The notes under the pieces are model-generated. The model did not search any database. It was not told where the DNA came from and saw nothing but the letters and a program-made list of their open reading frames with translations. From assembly GCA_030425705.1 (NCBI GenBank), contig JAUHZU010000001.1, positions 310,001 to 374,000 of the forward strand: a DNA stretch of 64,000 nucleotides, read 5' to 3'. Origin of the DNA: Phycisphaerae bacterium. GTDB taxonomy: Bacteria > Planctomycetota > Phycisphaerae > Phycisphaerales > Phycisphaeraceae. Positions within the stretch are counted from its first letter, which is position 1. The number at the start of each line of letters is the position of its first letter. Below, piece after piece: positions 1 to 10,674 of the stretch. Position numbers and translations under genes: made by a program.

Positions 1-106
1 TCGCGTCGCCGAAGTAAGGCAGGTAGAGCGAGACCAAACGGCCGCTCTGGACCAAGACATAGGCATCCGCTGCCTCGCCATCCACCGTGATGCTGTCGAA
101 TGTTCC
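1..106 (-). pseudogene. In-frame continuation of the surface protein gene after an amber codon
   Basis: Reading on in the same frame after the TAG at 107-109 gives 35 open codons to the window edge, with composition like the preceding gene (for example GTFDSITVDGE). This looks like the ordinary C-terminal region of the same beta-repeat protein. The simplest reading is one C-to-T change turning CAG (Gln) into TAG, giving either a pseudogene, a sequencing error or a readthrough site. The window edge prevents seeing whether dockerin or PEP-CTERM segments follow. Confidence 0.6.
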
Positions 107-3100
107 CTACAGCAGGCCGGTGTCGAAGAGCAGTAGACTGTCGCCGCGCGTCGGGTTGAAGCCGTCGGCCGTAATGAGCGCCAGTGTGCCACCCAGATCG
201 AGCACTTCCGACACGCCGAGCACCACATCGTCGCCCGGCGCGGTTGCCGCGTTCCAGGCGACCTCGAAGACGCCATCGCTCATCAGGCGGAGGGTGTTGA
301 GGGCGAGCGATCGTTGATCGGCGGCGCCCAGAAGGATCGTGCCGTGGTTGTGCCAGGTACCTGAGAATGCGACTGTCGCACCGGGGAGCGTCTCGATGAG
401 GCCGAGGTTCGTGCCGTGGGCCTGGCCCCCGCTCTGTGTCCCGAGCCAGATACTGTGGCCGGGGGATTCGTTACGGACCGTGCCTTCGATAACCGTCTGG
501 TGGTTGGACCGTCCCAACTGAACATTCCCATCGGTCGCGCGGACCGTCACACCCGTGCCCAGCGTGAAGTCGCCGTCGCCATCCAGGTATACCCGGCCGG
601 TGTTGCCTGGCCCGTCGAACAGAAGGGTGGCGTTTGCGTCCGCCAACAGCTCACGGTTCAGGATCAGGAGCAGGGTGTCTAGCGTATCACCCGAGATGCG
701 GATCGTCTGTCCATTCAACGGGTCGGGGCTATCCAGACGTACGATCGCGCCGTTGCGCATCACGGCCTCGCCCAGGAAGGTCGCATCAAACATAGACGTG
801 CCGCGGTTGAAGAACAGCGGTGTCGCGCCGGTCGCGTCGATGGTGCCGTTGGAGACAGTACCGCCATCGCCGGCAAAGCCGACGACCAGCCCGCCGCGCG
901 GGCCGTCGGTGCCCCAGGTCTGCCCGAGCAGGTCCAGCGACCCGATGACTTCAATCCACGCACCATTGGCCTGGGTGTAATCGGGCAGAGCGTTGAGGTC
1001 GAATGTCCCGCCAACGCGTAGCGCCCCGGCGTCGAGGTACACGGTGCCTGTGTTGTTTAGCTCGGTGGGGTCCAGCTCAATGGCGCCGCCATTGATGGCC
1101 GTAATCAGACCGGTGTTATTGACTGCGTCGGCAAGGTGGATCGACCGGCCCACACCCTCGGCGCGGATCGTCCCATTATTGTTGAGTAAGCCCCCGTAGA
1201 CCCGGCCCGACCCCGAACCGGTCCGCAGCGTCACGCCGGGGTCCAGGGTCAGCTCACCCGAACCGAACATCGTGATCTGGGCCTCGACGTTGACCGTATC
1301 GAAGACCAACGCTCCGTCGCCAACAACGCTCTGCACCTCGGCAAAGCGTATCGAGGTCGCGAAGCCCTGCTGGAAGTGGATCTCGGCCCCGTTGACCAGC
1401 GTCGTTTCGCCGACGAAGCGGATGCGGGTCGCGTCGATCGCGTCGATCCGGCCATCGAGCGTAAGCTGCTGGAACAGCGTGTTGTCGGTGGTGAAGAGCC
1501 GCGCACCATTGAGTGTGTTGACCGTGCCGATGATCGCGGCTTCATCGTTTACGCCAGCCAGTCCGCCGACCAGCCACGTGCCCGGGCCGTCGATGACCAG
1601 CGGCGCCGTAGTCGCATCGAGAACGCCGTTGATGCGGACGATCCCGGCGTTGATGGTGAGTGTAGCGAGCTGTGCTGTGTCGAACTGCCCCCCAAGCCGC
1701 AGCGTGCCGTTGTCGACCAGGATCGTGCCGGTGTTACTCCATTCGCCGCTGAGGTATACCGCACCGAATGAATTGGCTTCGATGTGCCCTGTGTTTGTGA
1801 CGTTGTACAGGTCCAGGGCACCGGCATTCGAGGCGCGTAGTGTCCCCGTGTTGTTGAAATCGGCGAATGCACTGTTCACGAGTGTGTTGGTGTTGAGCGC
1901 TTCGACTGTACCGTGGTTGGTGATGGTCAGGCCGCCGAGGATACCGTCGGCGCTGACGGCTTGGACGGTGAAATCGGCACCGATGGTCAGCGCGTCGTTG
2001 AAACCCATCAGGACAGAATCGGAGCCAGAGACCGGACCGTCGGCCTCAAATCGCAGCTCGCCAGCGCCGCTGAGCGCAGAGGTCGTGAAACGCGACAGGC
2101 TGGATGAACCGGCGGCGGCCGAGCGATAAAGCGTGATCGAGTTGCCGGCGGTAACCTCGATGCCCGACTCGGAGGTGCCGCTGCTGTTGGCGAGGAACAT
2201 GTCTGCGTCGAGCAAGATGCCTTCGTAGTTCCCGCCCAAGAGCATACCGCCGCTCGCCGCAGTGATCGTCCCATTGCTCGCCTCGCTGAACTGGTCGCCG
2301 AACCTCCAGCCCGCGCCGCCGAGGTCGAACACGCCCCCAGCCAGATCGAAGCCGCCTCTGACCCAGACGCTTGCGCCCGCACCGGTGAAGGACCCCAGGT
2401 CCGAGGCGTCGCCGTTGAGCATGCTTAGCTCGAGGGTTGCCCCCGCGTCCGCGGTGATCGTCCCGGTGTTCAGCAGGAGGTCGGCAAACAGCGTTGAACC
2501 CGCGCCAACGTGGACTGAGCCCCGGTTATCAAACTGGTCCAGATCGGTGGCGTAGATCGTCGCGCCGTTGATCGCTTCGACCCGGCCAGTGCCGTTGACC
2601 CGCACCAAATCAGTATCGAGATCGAGCAGGTGGCCGGGCCCATCGGCGGCGATCGTGCCCCTGATCACGATCATGTCGCTGGCGTCCAATCGGTTTGCGG
2701 TCCCGCCGACGGTGCGGATGATCGAGAAACGTGAGATCACGAGCTGGTCATCGTTGCTCTGGATCAGGCCGTTGTTCAACAGGTACGTGCCGGACCCTTC
2801 GAGGTCATTTGTGCCCGTGACATACAAGTCGGCACGTCCAGCGCCCGTCCCGAGATAGACCGTCCCACCATTGATTTCCAATTGATTTGTCGCGGTCAGG
2901 CGTTGGCCGCCCGCGATGTGCAGGTCAACTTGGTCGAATGCGATGCCGTTGAGGGTCTGGTCTCCTGCACCTAGGCCGAATGTCCCGCCACTCGAGGAGA
3001 CCACCATGTTGCCCAGCGTCCCGCCGTCGAGCAAGTAGTGCCCGGCCTGCAGGTCGAGTGTGCCGCCGTTGAGGTTGAGCTGGTTTGCGGTGTGGTGGAT

Positions 3101-3385
3101 CGTAGCGTCCACGCTGTTCAGCGAGAGGGCGTCTACCTCGATCGCGAAGTCGATCGTAACGGTGTAGGGCGCCCCGACAGCATCGATCCAGGCGTGGTAA
3201 CGGTCCAGCGGATTGGGGAAGCCGTTGAATGGGATGCTCGGATCGACCGTCCAATTGGTGCTGGTCGTCCAGTTTCCGTCGGTTGGGCTGATCCAGTGTG
3301 CGGCGATCTGTGCTGCGGCTGGCGGTGCGGACAGGACGCAGGCAGCAAGGGATACACGCGTCGTGATGAAACGATTCAAGAGCAT
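107..3385 (-). CDS. Large secreted beta-repeat (autotransporter-like) surface protein, interrupted at its 3' end
   Basis: This 1092-residue reading frame starts with a clear signal peptide (hydrophobic core, then PPAAAQ as a likely cleavage site) and an upstream GGGGGA ribosome-binding site 9 bases before the ATG. The rest is a long run of imperfect beta-helix repeats rich in Gly, Asn, Thr and Asp, in which phrases such as NTGTI, NTGTL and GALRVGG recur every 40-60 residues. Planctomycetes use such proteins as large cell-surface or extracellular adhesins, often ending with dockerin and PEP-CTERM segments. Here the frame ends at a TAG (107-109), but the same frame stays open beyond it to the window edge, so the natural C-terminus is outside the window. 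It is divergent from the gene at 3563. Specific function unknown. Confidence 0.8.
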   Translation of the reverse strand: MLLNRFITTRVSLAACVLSAPPAAAQIAAHWISPTDGNWTTSTNWTVDPSIPFNGFPNPLDRYHAWIDAVGAPYTVTIDFAIEVDALSLNSVDATIHHTANQLNLNGGTLDLQAGHYLLDGGTLGNMVVSSSGGTFGLGAGDQTLNGIAFDQVDLHIAGGQRLTATNQLEINGGTVYLGTGAGRADLYVTGTNDLEGSGTYLLNNGLIQSNDDQLVISRFSIIRTVGGTANRLDASDMIVIRGTIAADGPGHLLDLDTDLVRVNGTGRVEAINGATIYATDLDQFDNRGSVHVGAGSTLFADLLLNTGTITADAGATLELSMLNGDASDLGSFTGAGASVWVRGGFDLAGGVFDLGGAGWRFGDQFSEASNGTITAASGGMLLGGNYEGILLDADMFLANSSGTSESGIEVTAGNSITLYRSAAAGSSSLSRFTTSALSGAGELRFEADGPVSGSDSVLMGFNDALTIGADFTVQAVSADGILGGLTITNHGTVEALNTNTLVNSAFADFNNTGTLRASNAGALDLYNVTNTGHIEANSFGAVYLSGEWSNTGTILVDNGTLRLGGQFDTAQLATLTINAGIVRINGVLDATTAPLVIDGPGTWLVGGLAGVNDEAAIIGTVNTLNGARLFTTDNTLFQQLTLDGRIDAIDATRIRFVGETTLVNGAEIHFQQGFATSIRFAEVQSVVGDGALVFDTVNVEAQITMFGSGELTLDPGVTLRTGSGSGRVYGGLLNNNGTIRAEGVGRSIHLADAVNNTGLITAINGGAIELDPTELNNTGTVYLDAGALRVGGTFDLNALPDYTQANGAWIEVIGSLDLLGQTWGTDGPRGGLVVGFAGDGGTVSNGTIDATGATPLFFNRGTSMFDATFLGEAVMRNGAIVRLDSPDPLNGQTIRISGDTLDTLLLILNRELLADANATLLFDGPGNTGRVYLDGDGDFTLGTGVTVRATDGNVQLGRSNHQTVIEGTVRNESPGHSIWLGTQSGGQAHGTNLGLIETLPGATVAFSGTWHNHGTILLGAADQRSLALNTLRLMSDGVFEVAWNAATAPGDDVVLGVSEVLDLGGTLALITADGFNPTRGDSLLLFDTGLL

Positions 3386-3562
3386 CTATGATTTCCCCCG
3401 CCGGGGTCGGATGGAATGGAAAGCGGTTGGTGGTTGACAGGCCCTTGATTCTAGTTCAATAGGTGCCTTGCAGGTAGGTGATTGTGGGCTGATAGCAATA
3501 ATAGTTTTGGGCGGAAGGCCGGAACTGGTACACTCCTATGCCTCATGATTCGGAGAGTAATG

Positions 3563-5410
3563 ATGTACGCTGGGGGGACCAGGATGGGATGGAAAGGTTT
3601 GATCAGGCTGTGTTTATTGGTGGTTATTTGCCTACCTGTTGGGCACTCGATGGCGGGGATGCCCTCGCAGTTCGACTTCGACGTGATCTTGGCCGGCGGC
3701 CCTGTGCCCGAACTGGGTGCCGGGGTGATTGTGAACCCCGGGAGCGCAACCATCAATGAGTCCGGCGACTTGCTTATTGGCGCGTCACTTTCGGGGGCGG
3801 GGATCACCACAGAGAACGACGATACGCTGTGGCGTCACACCGATGCAGACGGCGCGGTGATGTTTGCCCGCTCGGGTCGGCCGGCTGCCGGATTCGACTT
3901 TCTCACGACCTATGCCGGTTTTTACAATGCGCTGTTGGACGACGACGGGGGTGTTCTCCTGACCGCCGAAATCGCCGGGCCGTCGATCGATACCCTCAAT
4001 AACTCGGCGCTCTGGTCCGGTGACCCGCTGGCATTCAGCCTCCATGCACAGCAGGGTGATCAGGTCCCAGGCTTACCGGCATCCGTGACGTATCCGCGGT
4101 TCGATACAAGTACGGCCTATAGCGCGGGCGGGCACATGGCGACCCTGTTCACCTACTGGTCGCCCGGCATGCCCGGTTCGTTCGAACGCGTCTTGCTTTT
4201 TGGCACTCCCTACAACCTCGCGCCGTATGCCACGACCGATGGTCAAGTCGCCCCAGGTGGTGTTGTGCTTGACCAGCTTCAGCGTTTCCAGGTCAACCGA
4301 CACGGGCAACTGGCAATACAGGGCAACCTGGCTGGCGGTGCCAATGCGATATTCACCGATGCGTCGGGCGTGTTTCGCGCGGTGGTTATCGCGGGGCAGC
4401 AGGCGCCGGGGATGGTCGCTGGTGTGACGATCGAGCAACTCAATGGGATGACACTACACGACGGCGGGCGGATCGGCTTCCTTGCCGAGTTCGACGGGCC
4501 TGGCATCAATTCGGGCAATAACCGCGCCTATTGGTTGGCCGACCCGGACGGGCAGTTGACGCTGTTGGCTCGAGAGGGCGATCTTCTGCCGTACCGCAAC
4601 GGGACCGCGTCGATGAGCGTGCTGCAGGAGTTCTATACCAACAAAGATGGGACGGTGGCGCTCGCTGCACGCATCGATCTGCCCCCGATCGACCAAGACC
4701 GCAACAGCGGCGTCTGGTACGGCACGCCAGGTGAGATGGAGCTGGTCATCCAGAGGCGGGACCCCATCCCCGGCGTTACGGGATTTGAGTTCGGCGAAAT
4801 GTTCAACCCGGTGGTCAACGACCGCGACCTGCTCGTTTTTTCTGCTCACCTGATCCGGGAAGGCAACTCGACGGGCAATGTTGATGCCGTCTTCGCATTC
4901 CGTGACGGCGTCCTCATCCCGCTGGTCATCGCCGGCGATGTGGTGGATGTGTCGGCACCGGGCGAGGCATCAGACCTGCGTACTGTCAGCACCGTACTCA
5001 GTTCGTCGTCCGGACCCGACACCGGTTTCGGCCACGGCCTGAATGACCAGGACCAACTCGCCCTCACACTGCGTTTCAGCAACGGCACCAATGCGCTGTT
5101 GCGCTACGACCTCACCGGCGTGTTTGCACCGGGGATCGCCGGTGACCTGACCGGGGATGGGTTTGTCGGCGTTGAGGACCTGGACATACTGCTCGCTAAC
5201 TGGGGCCGGACGACCTATGCCGGCTCGTGGCGTGACGGCGATGCGGACGGCGACGGCATCGTTGGTTCGGGCGACCTGCAGACCCTGATCGACCACTGGA
5301 GCGAGGGCGCCCCGCCCGGCGTCGTCGTCCCAGAGCCCGCTACCGGCGCGGTGCTGGCAGCGCTTTTTGTCCTGACAGGCCGTCGTCGCAGCAGGCGGCG
5401 CAGCATCTGA
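3563..5410 (+). CDS. Secreted NxxGxx-type tandem-repeat protein with dockerin and PEP-CTERM tail
   Basis: About 615 residues. The start is placed at the ATG at 3563 because GGAG lies 7 bases upstream; ATGs at 3560 and 3584 are alternatives. An N-terminal signal peptide (RLCLLVVICLPVGHSMA) is followed by tandem repeats of about 75-110 residues that each carry a motif like N-N-x-x-x-W followed by a (R/Q)-x-G-D-x-x-P-G ending (INSGNNRAYWL, LLAREGD, HAQQGDQVPG). This resembles the choice-of-anchor NxxGxx repeat families. Near the C-terminus are two dockerin-like calcium loops (DLTGDGFVGVEDL and DADGDGIVGSGDL), then VPEPATG, a hydrophobic stretch and RRRSRRR, a classic PEP-CTERM sorting signal. 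The protein is therefore expected to be exported and processed by an exosortase. It is followed after 29 bases by another PEP-CTERM gene. Ligand unknown. Confidence 0.82.
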   Translation: MYAGGTRMGWKGLIRLCLLVVICLPVGHSMAGMPSQFDFDVILAGGPVPELGAGVIVNPGSATINESGDLLIGASLSGAGITTENDDTLWRHTDADGAVMFARSGRPAAGFDFLTTYAGFYNALLDDDGGVLLTAEIAGPSIDTLNNSALWSGDPLAFSLHAQQGDQVPGLPASVTYPRFDTSTAYSAGGHMATLFTYWSPGMPGSFERVLLFGTPYNLAPYATTDGQVAPGGVVLDQLQRFQVNRHGQLAIQGNLAGGANAIFTDASGVFRAVVIAGQQAPGMVAGVTIEQLNGMTLHDGGRIGFLAEFDGPGINSGNNRAYWLADPDGQLTLLAREGDLLPYRNGTASMSVLQEFYTNKDGTVALAARIDLPPIDQDRNSGVWYGTPGEMELVIQRRDPIPGVTGFEFGEMFNPVVNDRDLLVFSAHLIREGNSTGNVDAVFAFRDGVLIPLVIAGDVVDVSAPGEASDLRTVSTVLSSSSGPDTGFGHGLNDQDQLALTLRFSNGTNALLRYDLTGVFAPGIAGDLTGDGFVGVEDLDILLANWGRTTYAGSWRDGDADGDGIVGSGDLQTLIDHWSEGAPPGVVVPEPATGAVLAALFVLTGRRRSRRRSI

Positions 5411-5439: not shown

Positions 5440-8400
5440 ATGACCGATGCGCCAATGCCCGCACGCTACCCCAGACGCCAACGCCTCGTCGCGGCCGCCG
5501 CGCTTCCCCTGTTGGTCGCTGCCAACGCCCAGGCCGAAGTACAGTCCACTGGCTACGTCAGCCCCAATCCGCTGTTCGTCACCGCGCAGGACGACTTGCT
5601 CGTCGGCTCATCCTTCAGCATCCCCGGCACGCTGGACATCACCAATGGCAGCGTGCTCGCGAGCCGAGAGGGCCGGCTCCGCGGCAACGGCACCTATGTC
5701 CGCGTCCATGGCGTCGGCTCGGCGTGGCTGATGTTTGGCGACCTCAACCTCTCGGGGACCGGCGTCCCCCACCTGCTCATCGAGGCCGGCGGCTGGGTCC
5801 GAAACATCGACGGCGAGGTGTACGGGGCGACCGGTTCGCCCGGTTACGTCGCGGTCGATGGAGCAGGGTCGGTCTGGGACATCACCGGCGACCTTTACGT
5901 CGGCGGCGCGCCAAACGTCACTTCCGATGGGTATGTCACGATCACCGGCGGCGGCGTGGTCAACGTCGCCGGCGGGGCGTTCATCGGGTCCTCGCCCAAC
6001 CGGACCGGTTACATCGCGTTCGACGACGGCACGCTCAATACCACCTGGGGCCTCGCCAGGATCGACGACCTGCGCGGCGCAGGTACGATCAACGCCGACC
6101 ACTGGCTGCTCACCGGGGATTACACACTCGCTTCCGCCGCCGACCTGCCGAGCGTCGTGGTCCTCGACGAACGCCCCGGCCAGAACATGACCCTCAACCT
6201 TGGCTGGTCCACCCCGTTGGACCAGCTCGAAGTCTTCGGCATCGACGACGGCACGTTGGACCTCACAAACGGTCTCGCGGTCACCAGTGGACTTGCGCAT
6301 ATCGGGTACTCGGGCGGCACGACGCAAGGTATCGTCAATGTCATCGGGACCGGGACGGTCTGGTCGATCAACAATCGGCTTGACCTGGGGGGGCTGGGTG
6401 ACGGAACGCTGAACATCATCGGTGGAGGGCATGTAGCCCATGCGGGGCTAGACCCCATCGTGGGCAGAGCCATCACGATCGGTGTGGCCGACGGATCAAC
6501 CGGCACCTTACTGATCGAGGGCCCCGGGTCACGGCTGGATGCTGAAACGAGCCTTGAGCTGGGTGGCTTTGGCTTGGGTCTCAATCCCGGTCCTGGCCGG
6601 GGCGACATGTCGGTACGCGCTGGCGGGGCGGCCGTAGCGGAGGGGATCAACCTGAACCATGGGTTGCTGCATATCTCGGGGGCAGGATCAACACTCGAAT
6701 TGTCCGGCCGCCTGCTGGTCCGTGAGGCAGTTGCTGGCACGCCCGCGTTTGAATCCTTCGCTCTCTTTGAGAACGGAGCCAGCGTCTCGATCGACCTCCT
6801 AACGCTGGAAGGCGCAGGCAGTCTCTCCGAGCTCGTGCTGGCGACCGGGACAGGTACCAGCGTGACCCTCACGGACCGACTCGTCGTTGGCAACAACGGC
6901 GATTCAGCCGCACTACGCGTGGCGGATGGCGCGGTGCTCACGACCGTTTCCGCTTCGATCGGCCTGAACACCAACTCGGCCCCGTCCAGCGCGATCACCG
7001 TCACCGGTACGGGCTCTCGCCTTACCGTCGAAGAGGACCTCTACATCGGCCACGGCGGGACCGGGTCCCTGCTCATCTCCGACGGCGGGCGGGTCGAGGT
7101 CGGCGGCCTGCTGATCCTCAACCAGTCCGTCAACACGGCCTTCGGCATCACACCGATCACGCTGGACCAGGGGACACTCGTCCTCGGCACGAGTAACGCC
7201 CTCTACGCCGAGGACGTGATGGGCGTCGGCACGGTCCACGCGAACACCTGGCTGCTGGAAGGCGACCACACGATCACCGGCTTCGATGACCTGCCGGCGC
7301 AGATCCTGGTCTCACAGTTCGAGGGCCAGGCACTCACCGTCAACCTCTCCTGGATACGCAACGCCGGGATCGATTTTCAGCAGTTCGGGGTCAACGACGG
7401 GTCCGTCACGATCACCGACGGTATGGCTCTGCGGAGCAGCTCGGGGGTCGTCGGCTACTACGCCGGCTCGGACGCTTCCGTTACGCTGACCGAACCTGGC
7501 ACGGTCTGGCGTGTCGGCGGGTTCACCGTCGGGGCATCCGGTACCGGCGTGTTGCGTATCGAAGACGGCACGCTGCTGACGGCAGAGTCGTCGTTCATGA
7601 TCGGCCAATCGGCCGGGTCGAGCGGGACGGTCGTCGTCTCGGGGCCCGACGCCGCGCTCTCTCCCACCACCGATCACCGCCCGGTGACCACCGTGGGCAG
7701 CTTCGGCACGGGCCTGCTCAGGATCGAGAACGGCGCGGTGTTCGGACCTGGCTCGACGTTCCTCGGCCGCAACGACGGCGCAGTCGGTGAGCTCGTCGTG
7801 ACGGGGAGTGGAACCACCCTCACCAGCACCAGCACGCTGTTCCTCGGCCAGGACGGCACCGATGGGATTGGGCTCCTGCGGGTGTTGGATGGGGCTCAGG
7901 TGCTCTACCAATCGATCAACGTGAACGGAGCCGGCGACCTCGGCAGCCGGGTTGAGATCGACGGCGCGGGCTCATCGGTGCAGCTACAGTTCGGCCTCCA
8001 CTCGGAAGCGATCAGCTCGGACTGGCTGTCCATCACCAACGGCGGGACGCTGGTATCTCATGGGCTCAACCGCCTCTACGGCGGTCTGCTTATCGACGGG
8101 AGTGGCTCGGCGTGGTCGGTTGAAGGCGACCTGTACCTCGGCGATCGATACGCGAGCTCGCTGGACCTGACGGGCGGGGCGGTGTTGACAACCCACAACG
8201 CTTTCATCGGACAGAACCGCTACAGCACATCGGACGCTCGGGCCGACGTGCTTGTCGATGGCCCCGATACGCTCTGGTCGATCGAGGGGAACCTCACGAT
8301 CGGCGGCACAACGGGCGACAACTTCGCCCAGCCGGACATCTATCGCGGGACGCTGACGATCGCCAACGGCGGCACCGTTACCGCGACCGGCGCGGTCCTC

Positions 8401-10674
8401 GTCGACCCTGGCCCATCGGGCAGCTCGATCGCGTTCGACAACGGCACGCTCAACGTCGACTCCGCGCTGGTCTACAGCACACAGCTCACCGGTGCCGGCA
8501 CGGTCAACGCCGACTACTGGCTGATCTCCGGCGACCATGTCATCAGCGACTTCAGCACGCTGCCCACGCAGATCGTTTACGACCAGCTCCCCGGCCAGGC
8601 CGTCACTGTAAACCTCGCGTGGTCCGACCCAACCCGTGTCTTCGAATTCTTCGGCGTCGATGACGGCACGGTACTCGCCCACAACGGGTTCAGTGTCCAC
8701 AGCACGACCGGCTACCTCGCGTTCAACCCGGGCTCGGTAGCGGACTTCTCGATCAGCGGTGAGGCAACGGGCTGGATCGTTGATGAAGAACTCCGAGTTG
8801 GCTTTGGTGGCGACGGGGCGCTGAGCGTCCTGGACGGGGCGCAGTTGACGGCCAACCATCTGCATGTCGCCGACCAGCCAGGCTCGGTCGGGCACCTTAG
8901 GGTTGCCGGTGCGGGCTCGTCGGCCGTGGTCGAGCGGCTGCATGTTGGGCAGGCCGGCGTAGGCAATCTGAGCATCACCCACGGCGGGGAGGTTGCCGTG
9001 GCCTCGATGAACGGTTCGAGCAACGGGCAGCTGGTCTTTGCCGAGGTTACATCGGCCACCGCGACGGCGACGATCTCCGGGGCCGGGTCACGCCTTGACG
9101 CGGCGCTGGTACGCAGTGAGATCGGCGTCCACGGGGCGGCGCATGTCACGGTCGAGGACGGGGCGATCTTCGCCTCGGGGTACAACACCTACCTGGGCCT
9201 GGCGTACGACGGGCTGGGGCAGCTCGTTGTCGATGACGCGGTCTGGCTCGCGGATTTCGTGCTGATCGGTTTCGACGGCACGGGCACGGTCGAGCTGCGC
9301 AACGGCGCTTTCGCCACCGCCGGCACGGTCCGCTTAGGCTCGGAAAACGATACCGTGGTCGATGGCGTGCGTTACGCCAGCTCGGGGCACGCCGTTGTCC
9401 AGGGTGCAGGCACGACCTGGGACTTGATGTTCGACATGAATGTCGGCCGGCTGGGCAACGGCACGCTCAGCATCATCGAGGGCGGCGTGGTCAACAGCCG
9501 AAGAGGCTACATCACTTCCAACAGTACGACGCCGTCACACGTCACGGTCTCCGGGCCCGGCTCGGCCTGGCACATGACCGAGGACCTCTCGGTCGGGCCC
9601 GGCTCCACATCGTCGCTCGTGGTCGAGGCGGGCGGGCGGGTTGTGAACCGCGACACGCTGCTTTACGGCACGGCGGTTGTGGATGGGGCCGACTCCCTCC
9701 TACGCAGCGAAGACCTGGCGATGCAGTCCGGCGGGGTGTTGCAACTCGCAAACGGGGGGCAGGTCGAGCTGGCGGGCAACCTGATCCATCGCTCATCGGC
9801 CGGCATCCGCTTTACGTTCGGGGACGCGGGGCCCGGCCACATCACCGTGGCGGGAGACCTGAACCTCAACAGTGCAGGCTCGGTCTCTTTCGCCGGCGTG
9901 GACGGCGCGGGGCTGTCCCTGAGCGATCAGCTAACCCTGATCCAAGTCGGCGGGCAGCGTCTGGGCGCGTTCAACAACGCCTTCGAGCATCAGACTGTCG
10001 CGACACACAACGGCCTGGACCTGCTGCTGACCTACACGGCCGGCGGCGGGAATGATGTCGGGCTCATCACCGCGGTCACCGGCGACTTGGATGGCGATCA
10101 CCTGGCCGATGCCGCAGACCTGCGGGTCATCCTGGAGCACTGGGAACAATCGGTCACACCCGCCGATCGCGCCGCCGGTGACCTGAACGCTGACGGCCTC
10201 GTCAACGGTGAGGACCTTCTCCGCACCCCACAGGCGATCCTGGCGTTGGGCGCGCAATTGTCGATAGCCGAGGTGCCCGAGCAAGCGCCCGGGCCTTACG
10301 CGGGCATCGTTGAGGGCCAGACGCTGGTGCGGTACGACGGGGTCGACCTGCTGCTGACCTACCTCGCGGGAGACGGCGACGACATCGCGCTGACGACCGC
10401 CGTCACGGGCGACGCAGACGGCGACGGCGTGGCCGGCGTCACCGACCTGGACCTGCTACTCGCCAACTGGGGCGACACGGTGACGCCCAGCGAACGCGCG
10501 GCGGGCGACCTCGACGGCGACGGGCTCGTAGGGCAAGGGGACCTGGACCTGGTCATGGCGTACTGGGGCAACAACGGCCTCGCCGGGCCACAAGTCCCAG
10601 AGCCGTCAGGTGTTTTTGGGTTGCTCCCGCTCATGTACCTGACGCGCCGAATCAGAGCGACCACAACGTCTTAG
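5440..10674 (+). CDS. Giant autotransporter-like beta-helix surface protein with two dockerin modules and PEP-CTERM tail
   Basis: 1744 residues with a signal peptide (LVAAAALPLLVAANAQA). An AAGAGG ribosome-binding site lies about 10 bases before the start. The body is beta-helical repeats of the form G-G-x-V-x-V-x-G-x-G-S-x-W. A longer module of about 100 residues (AGTxNADxWLLxGDxTI, then LPxQI, Q-x-V-x-L-x-W and FGxDDGT) occurs three times, at about residues 190-290, 565-665 and 1000-1095. The C-terminal part carries two copies of a tail unit (DLLLTYxAGxGxD, TAVTGD) each followed by a dockerin with DxDGDG loops. It ends with VPEPSG, a hydrophobic run and RRIRATT, a PEP-CTERM signal. No type V translocator barrel is present, so autotransporter-like refers only to the passenger-style repeats. 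Probably co-transcribed with the preceding gene. Role most likely surface structure or adhesion. Confidence 0.82.
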   Translation: MTDAPMPARYPRRQRLVAAAALPLLVAANAQAEVQSTGYVSPNPLFVTAQDDLLVGSSFSIPGTLDITNGSVLASREGRLRGNGTYVRVHGVGSAWLMFGDLNLSGTGVPHLLIEAGGWVRNIDGEVYGATGSPGYVAVDGAGSVWDITGDLYVGGAPNVTSDGYVTITGGGVVNVAGGAFIGSSPNRTGYIAFDDGTLNTTWGLARIDDLRGAGTINADHWLLTGDYTLASAADLPSVVVLDERPGQNMTLNLGWSTPLDQLEVFGIDDGTLDLTNGLAVTSGLAHIGYSGGTTQGIVNVIGTGTVWSINNRLDLGGLGDGTLNIIGGGHVAHAGLDPIVGRAITIGVADGSTGTLLIEGPGSRLDAETSLELGGFGLGLNPGPGRGDMSVRAGGAAVAEGINLNHGLLHISGAGSTLELSGRLLVREAVAGTPAFESFALFENGASVSIDLLTLEGAGSLSELVLATGTGTSVTLTDRLVVGNNGDSAALRVADGAVLTTVSASIGLNTNSAPSSAITVTGTGSRLTVEEDLYIGHGGTGSLLISDGGRVEVGGLLILNQSVNTAFGITPITLDQGTLVLGTSNALYAEDVMGVGTVHANTWLLEGDHTITGFDDLPAQILVSQFEGQALTVNLSWIRNAGIDFQQFGVNDGSVTITDGMALRSSSGVVGYYAGSDASVTLTEPGTVWRVGGFTVGASGTGVLRIEDGTLLTAESSFMIGQSAGSSGTVVVSGPDAALSPTTDHRPVTTVGSFGTGLLRIENGAVFGPGSTFLGRNDGAVGELVVTGSGTTLTSTSTLFLGQDGTDGIGLLRVLDGAQVLYQSINVNGAGDLGSRVEIDGAGSSVQLQFGLHSEAISSDWLSITNGGTLVSHGLNRLYGGLLIDGSGSAWSVEGDLYLGDRYASSLDLTGGAVLTTHNAFIGQNRYSTSDARADVLVDGPDTLWSIEGNLTIGGTTGDNFAQPDIYRGTLTIANGGTVTATGAVLVDPGPSGSSIAFDNGTLNVDSALVYSTQLTGAGTVNADYWLISGDHVISDFSTLPTQIVYDQLPGQAVTVNLAWSDPTRVFEFFGVDDGTVLAHNGFSVHSTTGYLAFNPGSVADFSISGEATGWIVDEELRVGFGGDGALSVLDGAQLTANHLHVADQPGSVGHLRVAGAGSSAVVERLHVGQAGVGNLSITHGGEVAVASMNGSSNGQLVFAEVTSATATATISGAGSRLDAALVRSEIGVHGAAHVTVEDGAIFASGYNTYLGLAYDGLGQLVVDDAVWLADFVLIGFDGTGTVELRNGAFATAGTVRLGSENDTVVDGVRYASSGHAVVQGAGTTWDLMFDMNVGRLGNGTLSIIEGGVVNSRRGYITSNSTTPSHVTVSGPGSAWHMTEDLSVGPGSTSSLVVEAGGRVVNRDTLLYGTAVVDGADSLLRSEDLAMQSGGVLQLANGGQVELAGNLIHRSSAGIRFTFGDAGPGHITVAGDLNLNSAGSVSFAGVDGAGLSLSDQLTLIQVGGQRLGAFNNAFEHQTVATHNGLDLLLTYTAGGGNDVGLITAVTGDLDGDHLADAADLRVILEHWEQSVTPADRAAGDLNADGLVNGEDLLRTPQAILALGAQLSIAEVPEQAPGPYAGIVEGQTLVRYDGVDLLLTYLAGDGDDIALTTAVTGDADGDGVAGVTDLDLLLANWGDTVTPSERAAGDLDGDGLVGQGDLDLVMAYWGNNGLAGPQVPEPSGVFGLLPLMYLTRRIRATTTS

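Follow-up and report, generated by a model that had tools for sequence, protein, structure and literature searches.

The window analyzed here, a stretch of 64,000 nucleotides (G000:C14:310001-374000) from a 4.1 Mb genome in 21 contigs (G000), carries at its left end, on the minus strand, a large gene whose reading frame (107..3385; 1092 aa) is ended by an in-frame TAG codon at positions 107 to 109. The gene body (110..3385, minus strand; 1092 codons) appears to encode an exported, repeat-rich surface protein, with both the repeats and a Sec signal-peptide-like N-terminus of ~25 residues (3311..3385, minus strand) judged by eye. Profile searches added a weak match of the body to Pertactin (18.5 bits, below the cut-off of 22), and a search against NCBIfam gave no match. 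A preliminary description of this DNA had reported that the TAG is followed by 35 open codons up to the window edge (1..106, minus strand), which reading of the frame confirmed. With flanking sequence added to the window, the frame was found to stay open for 120 codons beyond the TAG, without a second stop or a frameshift, up to a TGA, the rest of this tail occupying G000:C14:309744-310000 to the left of the window. The continuation left of position 1 on which the earlier reading depended is present, and it encodes a tail homologous to those of related genes.

By eye, the tail contains two dockerin-like units followed by a PEP motif, a stretch of 14 hydrophobic residues (mean hydropathy 1.96), and a basic cluster of arginines, so that every element of a PEP-CTERM-like end is visible behind the stop. 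The TAG sits ~30 residues ahead of the dockerin-like part and leaves most of the repeat body whole. The Dockerin_1 profile from Pfam scores 13.9 bits on the tail and 12.8, 19.4, and 14.1 bits on the three full-length homologues described below, against a cut-off of 22.9, whereas the Pfam PEP-CTERM model gives no match to the query tail and 18.3, 19.3, and 15.4 bits for the same homologues, all below its cut-off of 20.7. The dockerin and PEP-CTERM motifs anticipated to the left of the window are therefore evident on inspection, but both fall short of the Pfam cut-offs. Nevertheless, the presence of this tail past the stop supports the suggestion that loss of the C-terminus would remove a likely sorting tail.

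The genome as a whole yields 113 PEP-CTERM matches, 99 of them over the cut-off; among 14 control genomes none has a match over the cut-off, and six have matches below it. Three exosortase homologues score over their cut-off, and 42 dockerin matches were recovered at E <= 0.1. Because no cohesin match was found in this genome at E <= 0.001, a cellulosome role for the dockerin-like units is improbable and was rejected. Our literature search combining PEP-CTERM, dockerin, and Planctomycetes found nothing.

Homologues were sought with the read-through protein in the window's genome and 60 relatives, with up to 11 candidates scored per genome, and at least 71 matches were obtained in 18 of the 61 genomes. 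Three full-length homologues besides the query are among the matches listed, and none has an internal stop. One is a paralogue in the same genome (G000:C14:587291-590818; 53% identity), and the other two reside in the same-genus genome G001 (54 and 49% identity). The codon in the column of the TAG is CAG in the paralogue, CAA in one G001 gene (L036), and CTC in the third homologue, also from G001. Two of these three codons specify glutamine. A relative sharing the stop and followed by unrelated sequence, which would have spoken against the earlier reading, does not occur among the three full-length homologues. The matches listed include no full-length homologue from G002 to G004, the remaining genomes of the genus, two of which are 89 and 70% complete. 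A scan of genome contigs, in which records of or near the window's own genome may be left out, returned a single match, confined to the tail, from a Planctomycetota MAG (L145).

On the plus strand, a divergent neighbor (3482..5410) is followed in the same direction by a large third gene (5440..10674). The C-terminus of the divergent neighbor is 44% like the tail over query residues 1120-1211, and a homologue of this neighbor also adjoins the other three copies of the gene. The large repeat gene and the divergent gene (window 110-5410) thus form a cassette seen at all four loci, two per genome. The third large gene follows the cassette at three loci, including both G001 copies, and the stretch available for the fourth (L004) ends too soon to tell. 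To the left of the tail, the open reading frames of at least 100 aa have no match at E <= 1e-8 in the sequence compared beyond the sister copies, which spans 8 kb at L142 and 6 kb at L143.

The sequence beyond the TAG looks protein-coding. Against the two closest homologues, tail and body show similar identity, with 71/120 and 554/1070, respectively, for the paralogue and 64/117 and 569/1071 for the G001 gene L036; for the third homologue the body gives 525/1069 and the tail a lower 48/118. The best tail match in the window's genome besides the full-length paralogue reaches E = 1.3e-17 in the protein search (query 1125-1209), and this value, together with the body-like identity, indicates that the open tail is more than chance. 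Differences in the tail fall mostly at third codon positions (0.57 and 0.63, compared with 0.25-0.32 at positions 1 and 2), an excess like that seen in constrained coding DNA. The openness of the frame alone is weaker evidence because 754 of 20,000 shuffles of the tail bases are also free of stops. For the same reason, and because only 30 of the 1080 possible single changes in the tail would create a stop, the lack of a second stop is weak evidence that the lesion is recent.

We consider it probable that a single nonsense mutation, fixed or polymorphic, truncates this large exported surface protein gene in one genome. A C-to-T substitution that turned a CAG glutamine codon into TAG would, in this strain or population, stop translation 120 codons short of the original end. 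One such C-to-T step would be the simplest origin of the stop, as the preliminary description had proposed, and is supported by the CAG of the paralogue and the stop-free full-length homologues. CAG is also the usual glutamine codon of this gene because the body uses 23 CAG and 5 CAA codons. The ancestral codon would accordingly have been CAG, and the change probably recent compared with the divergence of the homologues. On the opposing side, the third homologue has CTC, which is not a glutamine codon, and its tail is the less similar one. From PEP onward, moreover, identity to the homologues (6/21 and 10/24) is lower than that between the homologues themselves (12/23), and there is no Pfam PEP-CTERM match. 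Such slight signs of drift could mean that the lesion is older, or just that the tail has diverged. There is no clear acceleration in the tail in a three-sequence comparison, where its excess branch length of 0.044 is equaled or exceeded by 7 of the 108 overlapping stretches of the body that were scored (another 6 were skipped) and has a bootstrap interval, -0.028 to 0.121, that spans zero.

At the C-terminus, homologues of the gene appear to have a dockerin-like segment followed by a sorting tail of PEP-CTERM-like type. In the published account of PEP-CTERM/exosortase (EpsH) proteins, the tail is handled by the exosortase (PMC1569441). The query resembles the proteins described there in its signal-peptide-like start, its tail with PEP, hydrophobic, and basic segments as judged by eye, and the exosortase homologues in its genome; it differs in that the tail lies behind a stop and escapes the Pfam PEP-CTERM model. 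Given this published model and the three exosortase homologues, we infer that the truncated product would be exported across the inner membrane via its signal peptide yet go unrecognized by exosortase, and so might be released or degraded. The importance of the lesion is mainly for annotation, with little beyond: gene prediction that ends at the TAG would give a product of 1092 aa lacking the sorting signal-like end of its homologues.

Belinky et al. 2021 (PMC7918605) describe in-frame stops in bacterial genes as a widespread phenomenon that lasts for short evolutionary times. The present case agrees with that account in having TAG where a homologue has CAG and a coding-like frame downstream, and a worked example there likewise concerns a TAG/CAG site. 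The focus of that study is on stops common to at least two species, whereas the stop described here occurs in one genome only.

Four explanations had been offered for the stop, of which a pseudogene or strain polymorphism is favored here, phase variation and readthrough drew no support, and a sequencing error keeps a small share of the probability. In the last case the TAG would be a consensus error of sequencing or assembly, and the gene would be intact in the organism. We regard this main rival as unlikely, although only one base is at issue, the assembly is a draft in 21 contigs, and the tail otherwise looks coding. The change is a substitution rather than an indel, and each of the two large plus strand neighbors aligns nearly end to end and in one piece (17-638 and 21-1790) with the sister locus (L143), so that the assembly looks sound locally.

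The position of the stop, just ahead of the dockerin-like part with the repeat body mostly whole, would also suit an adaptive truncation or a reversible off state, in which tail loss releases the protein instead of having it sorted. This seems very improbable to us, as the stop is found in only one genome and the paralogue, 65% identical in DNA over 402 matched bases, is probably too different for easy gene conversion. We also know of no mechanism that switches by a single substitution.

Equally improbable is a tolerated, leaky TAG with functional readthrough, which would yield mostly an untailed, released form and a minor tailed, sorted form. The coding-like tail would fit such a gene, and in-frame stops under purifying selection are reported in bacteria (PMC7918605). 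However, none of the three full-length homologues has a stop in the TAG column. No other dockerin or PEP-CTERM match listed has a true internal stop within its matched stretch, which includes the 113 PEP-CTERM and 42 dockerin matches of the window's genome; this count of stops covers the aligned residues, in many cases no more than the tail or the N-terminus. Every candidate in the window's genome was scored in the PEP-CTERM, dockerin, and protein searches, and the relatives are represented by up to 11 scored candidates per genome. The query tail itself is recovered by the protein search but by neither family search, and the family searches could therefore overlook other tails of comparable divergence behind a stop. 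Four other matches flagged for a stop (three in relatives, one here) each proved to contain the gene's own terminal stop. The other protein-search and dockerin matches in the window's genome all lie in open frames of at least 277 codons. The shortest frames in the PEP-CTERM search have 40, 165, and 190 codons, and that of 40 was dismissed as a weak chance match under the cut-off and without coding context. Within these searches, no second case like the broken gene was found.

Neither the tRNA complement nor the termination machinery favors readthrough or a recoded TAG. No tRNA gene with a CTA anticodon is among the 49 found in the genome, and a release-factor-1 homologue is present (391.2 bits, below the strict NCBIfam cut-off of 423.25). 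Among 30 loci looked at, three intact PEP-CTERM genes (L005, L025, and L031) terminate at TAG, a tally confined to cases read by eye since at least one chance frame (L017) entered the automatic stop counts. Behind one of these genes (L025) lies an open frame of 499 codons, which is not a cut-off tail, as an intact PEP-CTERM end precedes the TAG. On these grounds TAG recoding was rejected, and the gene seems to be of an ordinary kind, broken or variable between strains, rather than a product of an unusual genetic code. As an example of a lone nonsense lesion it is clean, with the surrounding checks arguing against TAG recoding in this genome. The release-factor search also returned a third, short release-factor-like match (G000:C16:98925-99143; prfA model 209-281) beside two near full-length ones.
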